Shown here: positions 4,272 to 39,710 of the stretch, in pieces
How positions within the stretch are numbered: the first letter of the stretch is position 1
Layout of the letters: every line of letters starts with the position of its first letter
Source: Alphaproteobacteria bacterium
GTDB taxonomy: Bacteria > Pseudomonadota > Alphaproteobacteria > CAAGCB01 > CAG-977
NCBI GenBank assembly: GCA_024407875.1
Contig: JAKSVT010000003.1
Location: 1 to 64,000, forward strand
DNA: 64,000 nt
Direction of reading: 5' to 3'
Position numbers and translations under genes: made by a program
The notes under the pieces: model-generated
Told to the model about the DNA's origin: nothing
Databases searched by the model: none
Seen by the model: only the letters and a program-made list of their open reading frames with translations

Positions 4272-4694
4272 ATGTTAAGTCCAAAGAGAACAAAGTTCCG
4301 TAAGCAATTTAAGGGCCGTATTCACGGTACTGCTAAAGGAGCTACAACTTTAGCTTTCGGATCTTTCGGTTTGAAAGCGTTAGAACCTGAACGTGTTACA
4401 GCACGTCAGATTGAAGCAGCTCGTCGTGCTATCGTACGTGCTATGAGACGTCAAGGACGTTTCTGGTTGCGTATGTTCCCAGATGTACCTGTTTCAAAGA
4501 AGCCACCTGAAATTCGTCAAGGTAAAGGTAAAGGTAATCCAGAATTCTGGATTTGCCGTATCAAACCTGGACGCATTATGTTTGAAATTGACGGCGTATC
4601 CGAAAAAATCGCTCGTGAGGCATTTGAATTAGCTTCTGCTAAATTGCCTATCAAGACGAAAATCGTTTGCCGCGATATGTCAGAGGAGGCCTAA
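4272..4694 (+). CDS. rplP: 50S ribosomal protein L16
   Basis: A 140-residue L16 beginning [16 protein letters not shown], with the two family signatures ([17 protein letters not shown] and [20 protein letters not shown]). It contacts A-site tRNA and the GTPase-associated centre and belongs to the late assembly proteins. The stop codon abuts the rpmC ATG with no spacer. Confidence 0.97.
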
Positions 4695-4898
4695 ATGGCT
4701 AAAATTAAAGATTTGCGTGCTAAGACTGATGATCAGTTGAATGAACAAATCGTGGCTTTGAAAAAAGAATCCATGAATTTGCGTTTTCAGCAAGTTGGCG
4801 GTCAATTGACAAATACAGATCGTATGCGTCAAGTGAAGCGTGAAGTTGCACAGATCAAAACAATCTTGGCTGAACGTAGTGTAGGGTCTAAGGAGTAA
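4695..4898 (+). CDS. rpmC: 50S ribosomal protein L29
   Basis: A 67-residue, mainly helical L29 with the conserved stretch KKESMNLRFQQVGGQLTNT. It sits at the tunnel exit beside L23. The start follows the rplP stop directly, and the SD for this gene (GAGGAGG) lies inside the end of rplP, so the two are probably translationally coupled. Confidence 0.95.
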   Translation: MAKIKDLRAKTDDQLNEQIVALKKESMNLRFQQVGGQLTNTDRMRQVKREVAQIKTILAERSVGSKE

Positions 4899-4903
4899 TA
4901 TAG

Positions 4904-5140
4904 ATGCCTAAACGTATTTTACAGGGTGTTGTTGTAAGCGACAAGATGGACAAGACAGTTGTTGTCAAAGTTGAACGTCGTGTTATGCACCCAATTTATA
5001 AGAAGTTCATCAAGCGCTCTAAGAAATATTCAGCACATGATGAAAACAATCAATACAAAGTTGGTGACGTAGTTCGCATTCGTGAATGCACACCATTTTC
5101 CAAGACAAAAACTTGGGAAGTATTGGTTGAAGCAGAATAA
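4904..5140 (+). CDS. rpsQ: 30S ribosomal protein S17
   Basis: A 78-residue OB-fold S17 with [19 protein letters not shown] and the signature that ends in [17 protein letters not shown]. It is a primary 16S rRNA-binding protein of the 30S body. It starts five bases after rpmC and precedes rplN by 24 bases. Confidence 0.96.
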
Positions 5141-5164
5141 TAGGGAAAGTGAAGGAATAATCCC

Positions 5165-5533
5165 ATGATTCAAATGCAAAGCAACCTGGAAGTCGCCGAT
5201 AATTCTGGTGCACGTAAAGTACAGTGCATTAAGGTATTAGGTGGTTCCAAACGTAAGACAGCGGATGTTGGCGACGTTATTGTTGTTTCTATTAAAGAAG
5301 CGATACCTCGCGGCCGCGTCAAAAAGGGTGATGTCGCCCGTGCAGTTATCGTTCGTACAAAATCTCCAATCCTTCGTAAAGATGGTCAAGCGATTCGTTT
5401 TGATACAAACGCAGCTGTATTGATTAGCAAAGACGGTGAACCTATTGGAACACGTATCTTTGGCCCGGTGACAAGAGAATTGCGTGAAAAGAAATATATG
5501 AAAATTATTTCTTTGGCACCAGAAGTTATCTAA
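5165..5533 (+). CDS. rplN: 50S ribosomal protein L14
   Basis: A 122-residue L14, exactly the typical length, beginning [18 protein letters not shown] and ending [15 protein letters not shown]...SLAPEVI. It binds 23S rRNA at the subunit interface and is the target of the silencing factor RsfS. It marks the beginning of the spc group in the E. coli arrangement; no promoter-like sequence is evident in front of it here. Confidence 0.97.
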
Positions 5534-5550
5534 TTTATTAGAGGGTCAAA

Positions 5551-5871
5551 ATGAAAATTAAAAAAGGTGATCAAGTCATCGTTACGACCGGTAAAGATAA
5601 AGGCAAAAAGGGCGAAGTTTTAGCTGCTATGCCTAAAGAAAATAAGGTCGTTGTCCAAGGTGTAAATATGGCAAAGCGCCACACTCGCCCATCACAGGCA
5701 AGTGCTGGCGGAATCATCTCTAAGGAAGCAGCTATCGACGTTTCTAACGTTGCATTAGTTGATCCAGAGACAGGAAAAGCCACACGCGTTGGTTTAAAAG
5801 TTGTTGACGGACAAAAAGTTCGCGTAGCTAAAAAGTCCGGCAAAGTTATTGAAACCAAAGCTAAGAAATAA
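5551..5871 (+). CDS. rplX: 50S ribosomal protein L24
   Basis: A 106-residue L24 with an N-terminal KOW motif ([20 protein letters not shown]) and the conserved [17 protein letters not shown]. It is one of the two assembly-initiator proteins of the large subunit. It lies 17 bases after rplN and 11 bases before rplE. Confidence 0.96.
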
Positions 5872-5882
5872 GGGAATGTGTT

Positions 5883-6428
5883 ATGACTGCAAGACTTTAT
5901 GAACATTATTTAAAAGTTGTTCGTCCAAAACTTGAACAAGAATTTGGATATAAGAATAAGTTGGAAATTCCCCGCTTGGAAAAAATCGTAATCAACATGG
6001 GCGTTGGTAGAGACGCCGTTGTTGATCGTAAAGCTGTTGACAATGCTGTCAAGGATTTAACAGCAATTTCAGGTCAAAAACCTGTTATTACATATGCTAA
6101 AAAATCCATTGCTTCTTTCAAATTACGTGAAGGAATGCCAATCGGCTGTAAAGTAACCTTGCGCCGTGAAAGAATGTACGAATTCTTGGATCGTTTAGTA
6201 ACATGTGCATTACCACGTGTTCGCGACTTCCGTGGAGTTCCAAACAAGAGCTTTGATGGTAGAGGAAACTATGCTATGGGTTTAAAAGAACAGATTATTT
6301 TCTTAGAAATTGATTATGATGCTGTTGACAAAATCCGTGGAATGGATATAGTATTCTGTACATCGGCAAAAACAGATAAAGAAGCTAAGGCTTTATTATC
6401 TGGTTTTGATATGCCGTTTGCAAAATAA
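5883..6428 (+). CDS. rplE: 50S ribosomal protein L5
   Basis: A 181-residue L5 with the signature [19 protein letters not shown] near residue 30 and [15 protein letters not shown]. It binds 5S rRNA and touches the P-site tRNA and S13. The ATG at 5883 gives the normal short N-terminus ([13 protein letters not shown]). Between this gene and rpsN there is a 28-base gap with an AAGGA SD. Confidence 0.97.
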
Positions 6429-35102: not shown

Positions 35103-38100
35103 ATGAGTTTATTTGGTGCTTTAAAAACAGGTGTTTCAGGATTAACGGCTCAATCTTCTTCAATGACCATTATTTCTGATAATATTGCGAACGTAAATAC
35201 AGTTGGCTATAAAGCTAATTCTGCAAGCTTTTCAACTTTAGTTACAAAACAAACATCTTCAACAAATTATTCTAGTGGTGGTGTTTTCTGCCGTGTACGT
35301 GAAGGTATTGATGCACAAGGTTTGTTGTCATCAACATCTAACGCAACAGATATTGCTATTTCTGGGGATGGTTTCTTTGTAACAACAGCCGTAAGTGTAC
35401 CTGACGGTGATGATATGTATTCATATACACGTGCAGGTTCCTTTGGTATTGATAAAGAAGGTTATTTGGTTAACGAAAATGGCCAATATTTACAAGCATG
35501 GACTTTAATGAGCTATGATGGTACATCTACAGCAAATACAATTACTGTAAACAACAATACCTATATGAAAGCTTATACAGATACAAGAGGTAAAACGGTT
35601 TATATTAATGATAACATCATTGATGCTGAAAACTTGCAAGCTGTTAACTTAAATCGTATTGGTGGTACAGCTCAAGAAACAACAGAAATTCAATTCGGTG
35701 CTAACTTACCAGCTGACGATCCTATTTTTGATCCAGGTAATCCTGAAGCTGGTGGTCGTTATACATCTGCTGTATTAATGTATGACTCTTTAGGTAATTC
35801 TCACAACGTTGAAATGATCTTTACAAAGACAGGTACAGGAGCATGGGACGTTGATATGGGATTGCCAACAGGGGTATCATCATTAGTTTCTTACTCAAAT
35901 GCAGAATCAACAAATGATGCAAGTCCAGATGTTTATGCTGCAGCAGCTCAATTAGAATTCAATAAAATTCCATCAAACCACTCAACAATTGGTATTGAAA
36001 TTGAGGGAATTAACTATGTATTTGAATTCTCTTCAGATGGAACAAAATCATATAATCCATTACCAAATGAACAAGTTATTATGGTTGATACTTCAGCTGG
36101 TATTGTAACAGTAGAAGATGCTGTAAAAGCTTTATATACTGAAATGCAAGGAATTTTACCAGGAGCAGGTAGATTTTCTATGGGCTCAAATGGTATGTCA
36201 ATTCAAGTACGTCAATCAACAGCAGGTTCATCTGTAAGATTTAATTGTTCTGGATGTTATGCTTGTTTACAATCTCAAACAAATCCAGATCCACAAACAG
36301 GTATTGCAACAGGTTATTTTGAAATGCCTGAGATCGACTGGGATGTAAAAAATACAGCACGTATTGAATTTACATCAACGAAGTCAAGCGACTACTTAAA
36401 CAAAACTATTACTCTTGGCCAAAATATTTATAAATTTACAAATAAAGATGAAGTTTCTGATGGTATAATTTGCGTAAATATTGATAGTGCTGTTGATAGA
36501 GTAACAAATACTGTTGACGTAGTTAAAATGGTTGGTTTGTTAAAAGCAAAAATCAATGATATAGAATTGGATCCAGAACGCTTTATAGCAAGTGGTTCAA
36601 CATTAGAAATTGAACCAAATCCAACAGGTGAAAATATTTTATTAAATACAAGTGCTGGTTCAGCTTTAGTATTTACATGTAATATTTTAGCATCATATGC
36701 TAACCAAGTTGTAAATATTAATGGCAAACAATATAAATTTATTAAAGATGATTCTCATGCAACAGGTGATGTTGATGGTGATACAGTATTTGTAAGCTTG
36801 GCAGGATTAGCTGGTCAAGATAGAACAGATGCATTGCCAATAGCTGTTGTTAATGAACTTAAAAATGCAATTGATGCTTACTATGCAAAGAATAATGACT
36901 TTGATACAGCAAACTATTTTGCTATTAAAGGAAATAAGATTACTGCAGCATCTGATGATATGAGCATGAGTGTTGAATCTATTCCTTCTTATAAAAAGAC
37001 ATTAACATTTAGTGAAACTAATGCAAAAAATTATGATAATAAGACAATTGATATTGATGGAATAACATATAGATTTTCTTTATGGGATCAAACAGGTACT
37101 GAAGCTGATGGTACAGTAACAGTAGGTTTGTTAGATAAGGGAGCTATTAGTACAGAAAAATTAGATTTCGTATCTAGTGATGGTGTATTCCATTTTGATA
37201 AAAATCTTGTAGGTAAAAACCTAACAATAGGTAACAAAATTTACGGATTTAAGAAATATGGAGCTATTTCAGGAAATGAAATTGCTTTAGTCCAAGATCA
37301 ACAAATTAAATTAGATAGTGTAGCAGCGGGTGATACATTAGTAATTAAAGGAACAACATACACATTTAAAAATAATGCAGATGCTTCTGTAAAAACAGAT
37401 GTTTATAAGAGTGATGCTACACATTGTTGTATTGCTAATGGAAGAACATTTGAAATTCCTGATAAAACAGGTACTGGTACAATTACATATACTTTCTATG
37501 ATCCAGCAAATTATGAAGCACATAAGACAGAAGATAACGTGTTTAAAGTAGATTATACAGGTTTGGATTTGGGAACAGAAAATGGTGTGCAAGCAGCTTT
37601 GGCACGTACATCTAACTATTTAAAGAGTTTGATGTCTGCATTACCTGATAGTTTAGGCAAATCATCAGTATCAGAAACAGCAAGCACAGTTTCTTTATCA
37701 TTCTCTCCATATTGCTATGTTGATTTAGATACATCAAATTTAGGAGAAACATTCTCAAGAAATATTAATAAGTTAGATAGCAATACTCCAGCTTCATATT
37801 CAGATGGGACAACAGTAAACTTATCAGGAACAACGCTTGGAAAAATTACAGGAACAGGAAGTTTTTCAAATGGAGCAGTTGGTACTGAAGGAAATACTGA
37901 AGATGGTTCAATTAAAAATGTAACTGAATATATGACAAATTCACTTAAGACATTAGCTACGTTAACAGGAGGTAGTTATAGTGCAGGTGTAATTACATAT
38001 AATGATAGTAACTGCTTAAAATTAGAAAAGGCTGCATCTATCGGTGATGATGTTTGTGCAATTAGTTTAACAACAACATCTAATGCAGCAATGAATGCTT

Positions 38101-39002
38101 TAGGGGATGCTGCTGGTAAATTAGCATATGTTACATCTAATACAATGAATATTACATACGTTAGAGGTGAAGATGATCCAATTCCTGCTGAAAAAGCATT
38201 AATTGGTGATGTTAACCAAACAACAGATGGCAATATTACACCAGTAAATGTAACAGCAAATCAACAAGGATTGCAAAGTGCAGTTACAGTAACAGGTAAA
38301 AATAATGGTAACCAATCAGGTCAACCAGTAACATTTGGAGCTGGAGAAAAATCAACAGCTGGTAAGTTAGTATTAACTAATAAATTTAGCTTTAATAACA
38401 TTAAAGCATCACAGGTTGGTAATAAAATTGCAGGTGTTTCATTTAACGCAGATGGTACTCCTTCAGCAGTTAATATCAATAATTTAGCTTTCGAATGGTG
38501 TAATGGTGCAGCTGATATGACAGGAAACTATTACGAAAGTACACAAGTTAATTTGTTCTTAGGTAATGAGAATACAGCAACAGGCTTGACTCAATTATCT
38601 GGAGCGTTTACAACAAACTTTATTAGCCAAAATGGTGCAAAGTTTGGTTCATATACAGGCGTTTCAATATCAGAAGACGGTGTTGTAACAGCAATCTTTG
38701 ACAATGGTCAAACACGTCCTATTGCTCAAATTCCTGTGGCTACATTTGTAAACGCAAACTCTATGGAAGCTTTGACAGGTAATATTTGGATTGAAACAAC
38801 CGGTTCTGGCAATGCAACACTTCGTACTGCTGGAGAAGGAGGTTCCGGTACAATTACTGCCTCATCTTTGGAAGATTCAACCGTTGATATCGCTAACGAA
38901 TTTACAAATATGATTACGACACAACGTGCTTATTCCGCAGCTTCAAAGATTATTACTACATCTGATGATATGTTGGAAGAATTGATTAACATCAAACGTT
39001 AG
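35103..39002 (+). CDS. flgE: Giant flagellar hook protein FlgE
   Basis: A 1299-residue hook protein, against about 400-600 in most bacteria. The N-terminus (MSLFGALKTGVSGL, then SDNIANVNTVGYK) and the C-terminus (EFTNMITTQRAYSAASKIITTSDDMLEELINI) are the standard axial D0/D1 parts. Between about residues 290 and 800 a beta motif of the type hxhxGxxYxF recurs six or seven times (for example near 296, 435, 536, 648, 706 and 745), looking like duplicated surface domains. It has 12 cysteines, including NCSGCYAC near residue 384, unusual for a hook. The AGAAW hairpin array follows it. Confidence 0.93.
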   Translation: MSLFGALKTGVSGLTAQSSSMTIISDNIANVNTVGYKANSASFSTLVTKQTSSTNYSSGGVFCRVREGIDAQGLLSSTSNATDIAISGDGFFVTTAVSVPDGDDMYSYTRAGSFGIDKEGYLVNENGQYLQAWTLMSYDGTSTANTITVNNNTYMKAYTDTRGKTVYINDNIIDAENLQAVNLNRIGGTAQETTEIQFGANLPADDPIFDPGNPEAGGRYTSAVLMYDSLGNSHNVEMIFTKTGTGAWDVDMGLPTGVSSLVSYSNAESTNDASPDVYAAAAQLEFNKIPSNHSTIGIEIEGINYVFEFSSDGTKSYNPLPNEQVIMVDTSAGIVTVEDAVKALYTEMQGILPGAGRFSMGSNGMSIQVRQSTAGSSVRFNCSGCYACLQSQTNPDPQTGIATGYFEMPEIDWDVKNTARIEFTSTKSSDYLNKTITLGQNIYKFTNKDEVSDGIICVNIDSAVDRVTNTVDVVKMVGLLKAKINDIELDPERFIASGSTLEIEPNPTGENILLNTSAGSALVFTCNILASYANQVVNINGKQYKFIKDDSHATGDVDGDTVFVSLAGLAGQDRTDALPIAVVNELKNAIDAYYAKNNDFDTANYFAIKGNKITAASDDMSMSVESIPSYKKTLTFSETNAKNYDNKTIDIDGITYRFSLWDQTGTEADGTVTVGLLDKGAISTEKLDFVSSDGVFHFDKNLVGKNLTIGNKIYGFKKYGAISGNEIALVQDQQIKLDSVAAGDTLVIKGTTYTFKNNADASVKTDVYKSDATHCCIANGRTFEIPDKTGTGTITYTFYDPANYEAHKTEDNVFKVDYTGLDLGTENGVQAALARTSNYLKSLMSALPDSLGKSSVSETASTVSLSFSPYCYVDLDTSNLGETFSRNINKLDSNTPASYSDGTTVNLSGTTLGKITGTGSFSNGAVGTEGNTEDGSIKNVTEYMTNSLKTLATLTGGSYSAGVITYNDSNCLKLEKAASIGDDVCAISLTTTSNAAMNALGDAAGKLAYVTSNTMNITYVRGEDDPIPAEKALIGDVNQTTDGNITPVNVTANQQGLQSAVTVTGKNNGNQSGQPVTFGAGEKSTAGKLVLTNKFSFNNIKASQVGNKIAGVSFNADGTPSAVNINNLAFEWCNGAADMTGNYYESTQVNLFLGNENTATGLTQLSGAFTTNFISQNGAKFGSYTGVSISEDGVVTAIFDNGQTRPIAQIPVATFVNANSMEALTGNIWIETTGSGNATLRTAGEGGSGTITASSLEDSTVDIANEFTNMITTQRAYSAASKIITTSDDMLEELINIKR

Positions 39003-39104
39003 TAATTAAGAACAATAAAATAATTCAGAAAGTGTTTTGGTAGAATTTCAAAACAAAAAAAGGAAGAATTCCTTAAAATATAAATAGAATGTTTAGAAAT
39101 TTAT

Positions 39105-39161
39105 GCCAGAATGGCGATAGCAGAAAGCTGTATTTCAATAGAATATTGTCGCCAGAATGGT
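39105..39161 (+). repeat. Structured repeat unit, copy 1
   Basis: A 57-base unit of four AGAAW hairpins: GCC/GGC, ATAGC/GCTGT, CAAT/ATTG and GCC/GGT arms. GGCGA (39113-39117) can instead pair with TCGCC (39149-39153), closing hairpins two and three into a three-way junction. Copy 2 lies 119 bases downstream. Confidence 0.75.
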
Positions 39162-39223
39162 ATACTTATTAGGTAAAGATATAGAATAATATCATATAAA
39201 AAATAGAATATTTGGTTTAGAAA

Positions 39224-39278
39224 GCTAGAAAGGTGATAGCAGAAAGCTGTTTCGACAGAATGTTGTCGCCAGAAAGGT
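39224..39278 (+). repeat. Structured repeat unit, copy 2
   Basis: A 55-base unit matching copy 1 at about 48 of 55 aligned positions with one 2-base gap. The CAAT/ATTG arms become CGAC/GTTG and still pair, including one full T-A to C-G swap. The outer GGCGA/TCGCC stem becomes GGTGA/TCGCC with a G.U pair. Loops remain AGAAW. The pattern of change supports a conserved RNA fold. Confidence 0.75.
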
Positions 39279-39308
39279 AAAAAATCAAAATAGAATATTT
39301 ACAAAATT

Positions 39309-39335
39309 GGGGTGCAAAGAATGGCACTCCATTTT
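39309..39335 (+). terminator. Intrinsic terminator of the fliK-flgD-flgE operon
   Basis: GGGGTGC (39309-39315) pairs with GCACTCC (39324-39330; one G.U) and is followed by ATTTTTG and further T-rich sequence. The 8-base loop contains AGAAT, making it also the last element of the hairpin array. Confidence 0.8.
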
Positions 39336-39363
39336 TGTTTTTGAAATTATGGTAAATAAAAAA

Positions 39364-39383
39364 CCCGTCAAAATCTTGACGGG
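39364..39383 (-). terminator. Intrinsic terminator of rpmB (bidirectional shape)
   Basis: CCCGTCAA (39364-39371) and TTGACGGG (39376-39383) form a perfect 8-bp stem with a four-base loop. On the minus strand it is followed by a run of T, directly behind rpmB. On the plus strand it is followed by CTTTT, so it may also back up the flgE terminator. Confidence 0.9.
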
Positions 39384-39407
39384 CTTTTAAATTCTTCAAA
39401 CAAGCGA

Positions 39408-39710
39408 TTATTTTGCTTCAGCTGTTTTCTTTTGTGCTGCTGACAAAACGCTCTTCTTTAAGCATTTTGCATCATAAGACAAGCGGCTGTTTGGTGTGCT
39501 GATTAAGAAAGCATCCAATCCACCGTTAGCTTCGATTGTGCGTAATCCACGTGTTGAAACACGTAAAGCAACTGTTTTACCGAGAGCTTCACTTAACAAT
39601 GAAACAACTTGCAAATTTGGTAAAAATCTGCGACGTGTTTTGTTGTTAGCATGAGAAACATTGTTTCCTGTTTGTACGCCTGTTCCTGTAATAATGCAAC
39701 GTCTGGACAT
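39408..39710 (-). CDS. rpmB: 50S ribosomal protein L28
   Basis: A 100-residue L28 starting [29 protein letters not shown], the typical N-terminus, with [28 protein letters not shown] further on. It is a single-gene unit with its own terminator and a plausible promoter at 39747-39775. Only one cysteine is present, so it is the zinc-free form. It separates the motility region from the efflux operon. Confidence 0.96.

Follow-up and report, generated by a model that had tools for sequence, protein, structure and literature searches.

Flagellar genes of Escherichia coli give rise to sigma-28 small RNAs from their untranslated regions (UTRs), among them MotR, FliX and FlgO, which are described as Hfq-dependent base-pairing RNAs and not as arrays of one loop. 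A different form is seen in E. coli CsrB, where CAGGA(U/A/C)G is repeated about 18 times, each time within a hairpin loop or another single-stranded region (PMC7652899). In Campylobacter jejuni, the flaA mRNA has been proposed to titrate CsrA, its own regulator (PMC4894983). In Caulobacter, FlbT acts on flagellin 5′ UTRs (PMC4347634, PMC3930126), and translational repression of flagellin also involves the flagellin FljJ (PMC7591256). A review of this system regards the recognition of flagellin mRNA by FlbT as unresolved and gives no RNA motif (PMC4347634). The present analysis concerns an array of mini-hairpins with AGAA-type loops in the 3′ UTR of the flagellar hook protein gene flgE, within a stretch of 64,000 nucleotides (nt; hereafter the window) at the start of contig JAKSVT010000003.1 of an alphaproteobacterium. 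The first-pass annotation of the window knew of no described element of such form, which was too strong a statement given the repeated CAGGA(U/A/C)G in the hairpin loops of CsrB (PMC7652899).

The array (39027-39322, plus strand) contains exactly 18 AGAAW pentamers (W being A or T), with starts from 39027 to 39318. Thirteen of these form the loops of mini-hairpins with differing stems: 12 are flanked by arms of at least 3 base pairs (bp) around a 5-nt loop, and the 13th (39178-39193) has the 6-nt loop AGAATA. The first-pass annotation had reported 18 AGAAW in less than 300 bases, most between complementary arms; the count was exact and the stems it quoted were all correct. The AGAAT that it placed in the terminator loop is likewise seen, in an intrinsic terminator (TGGGGTGC-AAAGAATG-GCACTCCA plus a T-run; 39308-39341, with the hairpin at 39308-39331, plus strand). 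When hairpins are required to have a 5-nt loop, a stem of 3 bp or more and a score of 7 or higher, the array holds 11 with an AGAAN loop, compared with a mean of 0.16 and a maximum of 3 in 2000 dinucleotide shuffles. When AGAAN was held fixed and the remainder shuffled, the mean was 0.63 and the maximum 6, and any other 4-mer taken as the loop gave at most one hairpin in the array. An excess over shuffled sequence, which the first-pass annotation had named among the tests of its proposal, is therefore present in that the shuffles never reach the observed count. The folding z-score of the array against shuffles is -7.05.

Judged by its sequence, the array is a real, selected RNA element, and the evidence of its conservation comes from two species. 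The closest relative (G003), in which the C-terminal part of flgE is 82% identical, likewise has an array of AGAAN hairpins downstream of flgE (L114:4627-4843, on contig JAKSVU010000003.1 from horse faeces). In both species the array begins approximately 20 nt past the flgE stop codon in the same orientation and ends in a terminator, that of the sister species (L114:4830) being AGGGAGTTC-AGAAC-GAACTCCCT. At the identical cut-off the sister array has 7 hairpins, where shuffles give 2 at most, and its fold z-score is -4.5. Its stems, which include GAC-AGAAC-GTC, ATTCC-AGAAA-GGAAT, AAAC-AGAAC-GTTT and GAC-AGAAA-GTC, are entirely unrelated to those of the window array, and the loop and the place are what the two share. 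When the window array was compared by BLAST with the genome that bears it and with 60 relatives, the matches were weak and chance-like only; this search misses the sister array because the stems evolve too fast, and that array was found only by reading downstream of flgE. Within what a pattern search can see, no second array was found in either array-bearing genome. A scan of 385 genomes of the class for three nearby CAGAANG gave mostly coding- or tandem-repeat-like matches, and only one of the loci taken from it (L150) contained a repeat-like cluster of three hairpins. The looser triple AGAAW pattern often arises by chance, with 230 forward matches and 145 reverse ones versus 153 and 121 in the control.

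Divergence within the array is equally informative about what has been kept. Two internal duplicate copies (39098-39168 and 39219-39285, plus strand) show several stem differences; none of the four AGAA is lost, the stems still pair, and loop variation is confined to the last base. The change between CAAT-AGAAT-ATTG and CGAC-AGAAT-GTTG comprises one compensatory T-A to C-G replacement and one A-T to G-T wobble, and that between GCC/GGC and GCT/GGT comprises two wobbles. It is only on the flgE-sense strand that the wobbles in the duplicates can pair, and this argues for RNA rather than DNA. Across the whole array there are 11 G-U against 3 A-C pairs, a ratio in which hairpin selection itself favours G-U. 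The birth of part of the array by internal duplication would suit a chromosomal DNA element, whether a protein-binding or a cruciform array, or a neutral repeat expansion. However, stems that vary between hairpins and species around constant loops, the strand-specific G-U pairs, and the common orientation of the two arrays with the terminator at their ends all speak against this explanation, which is highly improbable. The proposal in the first-pass annotation that a constant loop on variable stems was selected for by a loop-reading protein gains support from the sister array and from the loop- and pair-preserving divergence of the duplicates. Among its three suggested roles, a protein-titrating RNA or a 3′-UTR regulator is favoured and a DNA binding array disfavoured.

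The loop of the array recurs in the flagellin leaders of the two array species, where three of five leaders have an AGAA-loop hairpin about 33-79 nt before the ATG: AAATTC-AGAAT-GAGTTT (L178), AATTT-AGAAT-GAATT (L173) and CGTTATCGC-AGAA-GCGGTGATG (L174). No such hairpin was found among the window's other gene leaders, 40 in number (3/5 versus 0/40, Fisher P 0.0007), or in nine flagellin leaders of array-less relatives, and random 140-nt segments of the window contain one in 1.3% of cases. Relatives have a leader hairpin at a similar place with loops such as CGAAGC, GAAA, TGAAGG and AGGAC, which mostly share G-R-A. This recurrence is suggestive of a link between the array and flagellin. Terminator-like hairpins were scanned in sequence from the two array genomes, and those with AGAA loops lay at both flgE ends, in the terminator of one flagellin gene and in a single flagellin leader; a general preference for AGAA loops among hairpins of the window species was rejected on account of this restricted distribution. 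The terminator concerned (GGCAGACGGGAC-AGAA-GTCCCGTTTGTT; L221:4495-4522) follows one flagellin gene in the genome of the window species.

Given that flagellin leaders share the loop, transcription of flgE would titrate a regulator that binds those leaders. The protein-titrating role is the best supported of those suggested in the first-pass annotation, and the array may be a multi-site decoy in the flgE 3′ UTR for a flagellin-leader-binding regulator, most likely FlbT, a reading for which the chances appear evenly balanced. The array would stay on the flgE mRNA or be released as a 3′-UTR-derived RNA, and each mini-hairpin would offer its AGAAN loop, often C-G closed, to a protein that recognises the loop regardless of the stem sequence. 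The single AGAAN hairpins in flagellin leaders would bind the same candidate regulator. Transcription of flgE would draw this regulator off flagellin mRNA, and hook-gene expression would thereby be coupled to the later switch-on of flagellin. Protein binding, the identity of the protein as FlbT and the effect of titration are all matters that we infer.

Two other readings also assume a bound protein. In the first, the array is a local cis element of the 3′ UTR, whose bound protein stabilises, localises or times the decay of the flgE mRNA with no titration; its position about 20 nt after the stop in both species, its terminal terminator and the lack of a separate promoter-like site in the scan described below are as expected for such an element. 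This leaves the recurrence of the loop in flagellin leaders and the retention of so many copies unexplained, and is considered unlikely. In the second, another RNA-binding protein with no special flagellin link is titrated, for example Hfq via the A-rich loops, or a further loop reader. This is distinctly unlikely, since the AGAAN loop, often closed by C-G, has greater specificity than an ARN repeat, and AGAA-loop hairpins were found at flagellar transcripts in the scanned stretches of the two genomes.

The candidate regulator FlbT (PF07378) is encoded in all 12 genomes of the family. CsrA (PF02599) was detected in none of the 12, which include the window genome (G000; 1.77 Mb, 47 contigs, 96.6% complete), by a search that detects the E. 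coli, Bacillus subtilis and Thermotoga maritima controls. A sponge of the CsrB type, acting on a CsrA that has diverged or escaped detection and whose loop preference has shifted from AGGA to AGAA, would nevertheless account for the shared CsrB form and for the likeness of CAGAA(U/A/C)G to CAGGA(U/A/C)G (PMC7652899). PrrB_RsmZ was also among the better sub-threshold Rfam matches of the array (E 0.0072; 21.7 bits against a cut-off of 44), and other alphaproteobacteria have FliW beside flagellins whose leaders carry AGGAN loops, as described below. Such a sponge is very unlikely in view of the PF02599 search, with its three positive control genomes, and of the finding that CsrA no longer binds the C. 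jejuni flaA leader once its GGA is replaced by AAA (PMC4894983).

The predicted model of FlbT has five strands followed by helices, a strand order only suggestive of CsrA. Comparison of FlbT with CsrA by hhalign, using CsrA sequences entered by hand, gave a probability of 0.5%, and Foldseek with the FlbT model returned no CsrA or clear RNA-binding fold among the PDB matches listed. The idea that FlbT is a CsrA-fold protein, attractive by eye, was unsupported by profile comparison and Foldseek and was rejected. In both array species flbT (L217:3917-4321; also L218) adjoins a flagellin-like open reading frame (ORF; 4340-5893) of about 515 amino acids (aa). By analogy with Caulobacter FljJ, the protein it encodes could be a co-repressor.

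Leader hairpins of a related kind were found across the class in a sample of 105 flagellin leaders from 51 alphaproteobacterial genomes (L229-L338). Hairpins with an A-N-R-A-N pentaloop and variable stems occur in 35 of these leaders (28 genomes), usually 30-66 nt before the ATG, compared with 6 on the reverse strand and a mean of 3.5 (maximum 8) in 100 shuffles. Of 114 leaders of genes other than flagellin, one has such a hairpin (versus 35/105, Fisher P = 7e-12), as do 39 of 1240 control tiles. The main loop forms are AGGAN (11 leaders) and AGAAN (7), each with no occurrence on the reverse strand, then AAAAN and ATGAA, and 28 of 41 hairpins are closed by a C-G pair. An Rfam search of 20 flagellin loci gave no match up to E 0.5.

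Loop type was also set beside the neighbours of flagellin genes in 20-kb stretches, a comparison for which data are sparse. Six of 40 stretches (up to 20 kb) encode a FliW-like protein, so named on the basis of its sequence and without a curated model, and five of the six come from genomes with AGGAN or ATGAA leaders. In L345, L346, L351, L361, L363 and L371, no more than about 10 kb separates the FliW-like gene from flagellins, most of which have AGGAN/ATGAA leaders. FliW is an antagonist of CsrA, and its presence near flagellins suggests a CsrA-FliW system in those alphaproteobacteria; CsrA was not found in the FliW-bearing flagellin stretches. FlbT is present in 7 to 8 flagellin stretches from 7 genomes, with leader loops that include AGGAT, AAAAT, AGAAA and AGGAG. 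With several AGGAN/ATGAA leaders sitting near fliW, the proposal that every leader hairpin of the class is an FlbT site was withdrawn. A broader hypothesis is put forward tentatively, as possible though doubtful: control of alphaproteobacterial flagellin mRNAs would operate through a code of A-N-R-A-N pentaloops on arbitrary stems, with FlbT as its reader in the absence of CsrA, and the hook-gene 3′ UTR of these gut alphaproteobacteria would be an independently evolved, CsrB-like FlbT sponge coupling hook transcription to flagellin synthesis.

Several observations weigh against the decoy reading. The global minimum-energy fold of the array favours some longer-range pairs, and the mini-hairpins are not all formed together in silico. 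Of the three AGAA leader hairpins, two are paralogues and one belongs to the other genome; two of the five leaders have none. Other genomes of the family, which bear FlbT too, have an ordinary terminator after flgE instead of an array where the 3′ end is readable; the first-pass expectation of arrays in related genomes holds for the closest relative and fails for most others. Near the AGGAN/ATGAA-leader flagellins of other alphaproteobacteria, FliW is often found rather than FlbT, so that some of the leader signal across the class may reflect CsrA sites of other lineages.

The flgE gene (35103-39002, plus strand; from the ORF list) encodes a very long hook protein of 1299 aa, of which the C-terminal 200 aa are kept in 12 of 12 family genomes; the open frames of relatives at this place span about 1066-1301 aa where the contig suffices. 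The nearest relatives of the window genome by flgE are metagenome-assembled genomes of gut and rumen alphaproteobacteria. A scan covering sigma-70-like promoters only found no such site in the array region, and the array is thus most simply the 3′ UTR of flgE. All of its hairpins are read on the plus strand. The first two AGAAW (39027 and 39042) lack a local stem of the mini-hairpin kind. They are followed by AAGGA-AGAAT-TCCTT (39060-39074) and TAAAT-AGAAT-GTTTA (39081-39095). The first duplicate copy includes TGCC-AGAAT-GGCG (39104-39116), ATAGC-AGAAA-GCTGT (39117-39131), CAAT-AGAAT-ATTG (39136-39148) and GCC-AGAAT-GGT (39151-39161). Between the copies lie the hairpin with the 6-nt loop, GATAT-AGAATA-ATATC, and AAAT-AGAAT-ATTT (39201-39213). 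The second copy includes GCT-AGAAA-GGT with two wobble pairs (39224-39234), GATAGC-AGAAA-GCTGTT (39235-39251), CGAC-AGAAT-GTTG (39253-39265), which covaries with 39136-39148, and GCC-AGAAA-GGT (39268-39278). A second AAAT-AGAAT-ATTT (39288-39300) precedes the terminator.

Outside the element, the convergent neighbour is an ORF (39408-39710, minus strand; matched in 12 of 12 family genomes) that we take from its sequence to be rpmB, for ribosomal protein L28. A terminator-like hairpin readable on both strands, AAAAGCCCGTCAA-GATT-TTGACGGGTTTTT (39359-39391), lies between the array and rpmB. Repeated intergenic stretches around AATTGATTTTAG / TAAAATCAATTT occur at L114:4890-5175 and downstream of flgE in L055, L057 and L059, and are possibly a family of the lineage resembling repetitive extragenic palindromes (REP-like).

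Set against known systems, the array resembles CsrB/CsrC and RsmX/Y/Z (Rfam PrrB_RsmZ) in having many short hairpins, one loop motif on variable stems and an intrinsic terminator at the 3′ end. Its 18 AGAAW compare with the approximately 18 CAGGA(U/A/C)G of CsrB, and its formula is AGAA(U/A/C), often CAGAANG. Unlike CsrB and RsmZ, its loops are AGAAN in both species with no GGA, it belongs to a lineage in which CsrA was not detected (0/12 family genomes), and, unlike CsrB, it lies directly behind a protein gene and is not a known separate RNA gene. As no GGA loop is present, CsrA was not detected and nothing in Rfam rose above its cut-off (PrrB_RsmZ, 21.7 bits versus 44), the array is CsrB-like in form, and presumably in action, and not a member of the CsrB family. 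As with MotR, FliX and FlgO, a candidate regulatory RNA here comes from the UTR of a flagellar gene. C. jejuni flaA is a precedent in that titration of a protein regulating flagellar mRNAs is proposed for an mRNA that is itself flagellar; in flaA this would involve two GGA hairpins in a flagellin 5′ leader and CsrA, whereas the array has more than 10 AGAAN hairpins in a hook-gene 3′ UTR. With the Caulobacter FlbT system it shares FlbT, present in all family genomes, and flagellin leaders with hairpins, whereas the review describes neither an FlbT decoy RNA nor an FlbT RNA motif (PMC4347634). The array loop, which recurs in flagellin leaders, offers a specific candidate for that motif that could readily be tested. 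If the decoy reading is true, a protein-titrating RNA of the CsrB form would exist where CsrA is undetected, within the hook transcript and at the assembly switch to flagellin. What is new relative to the described systems is the CAGAA(U/A/C)G loop, its occurrence in a lineage without detectable CsrA and its place in the 3′ UTR of a hook gene.
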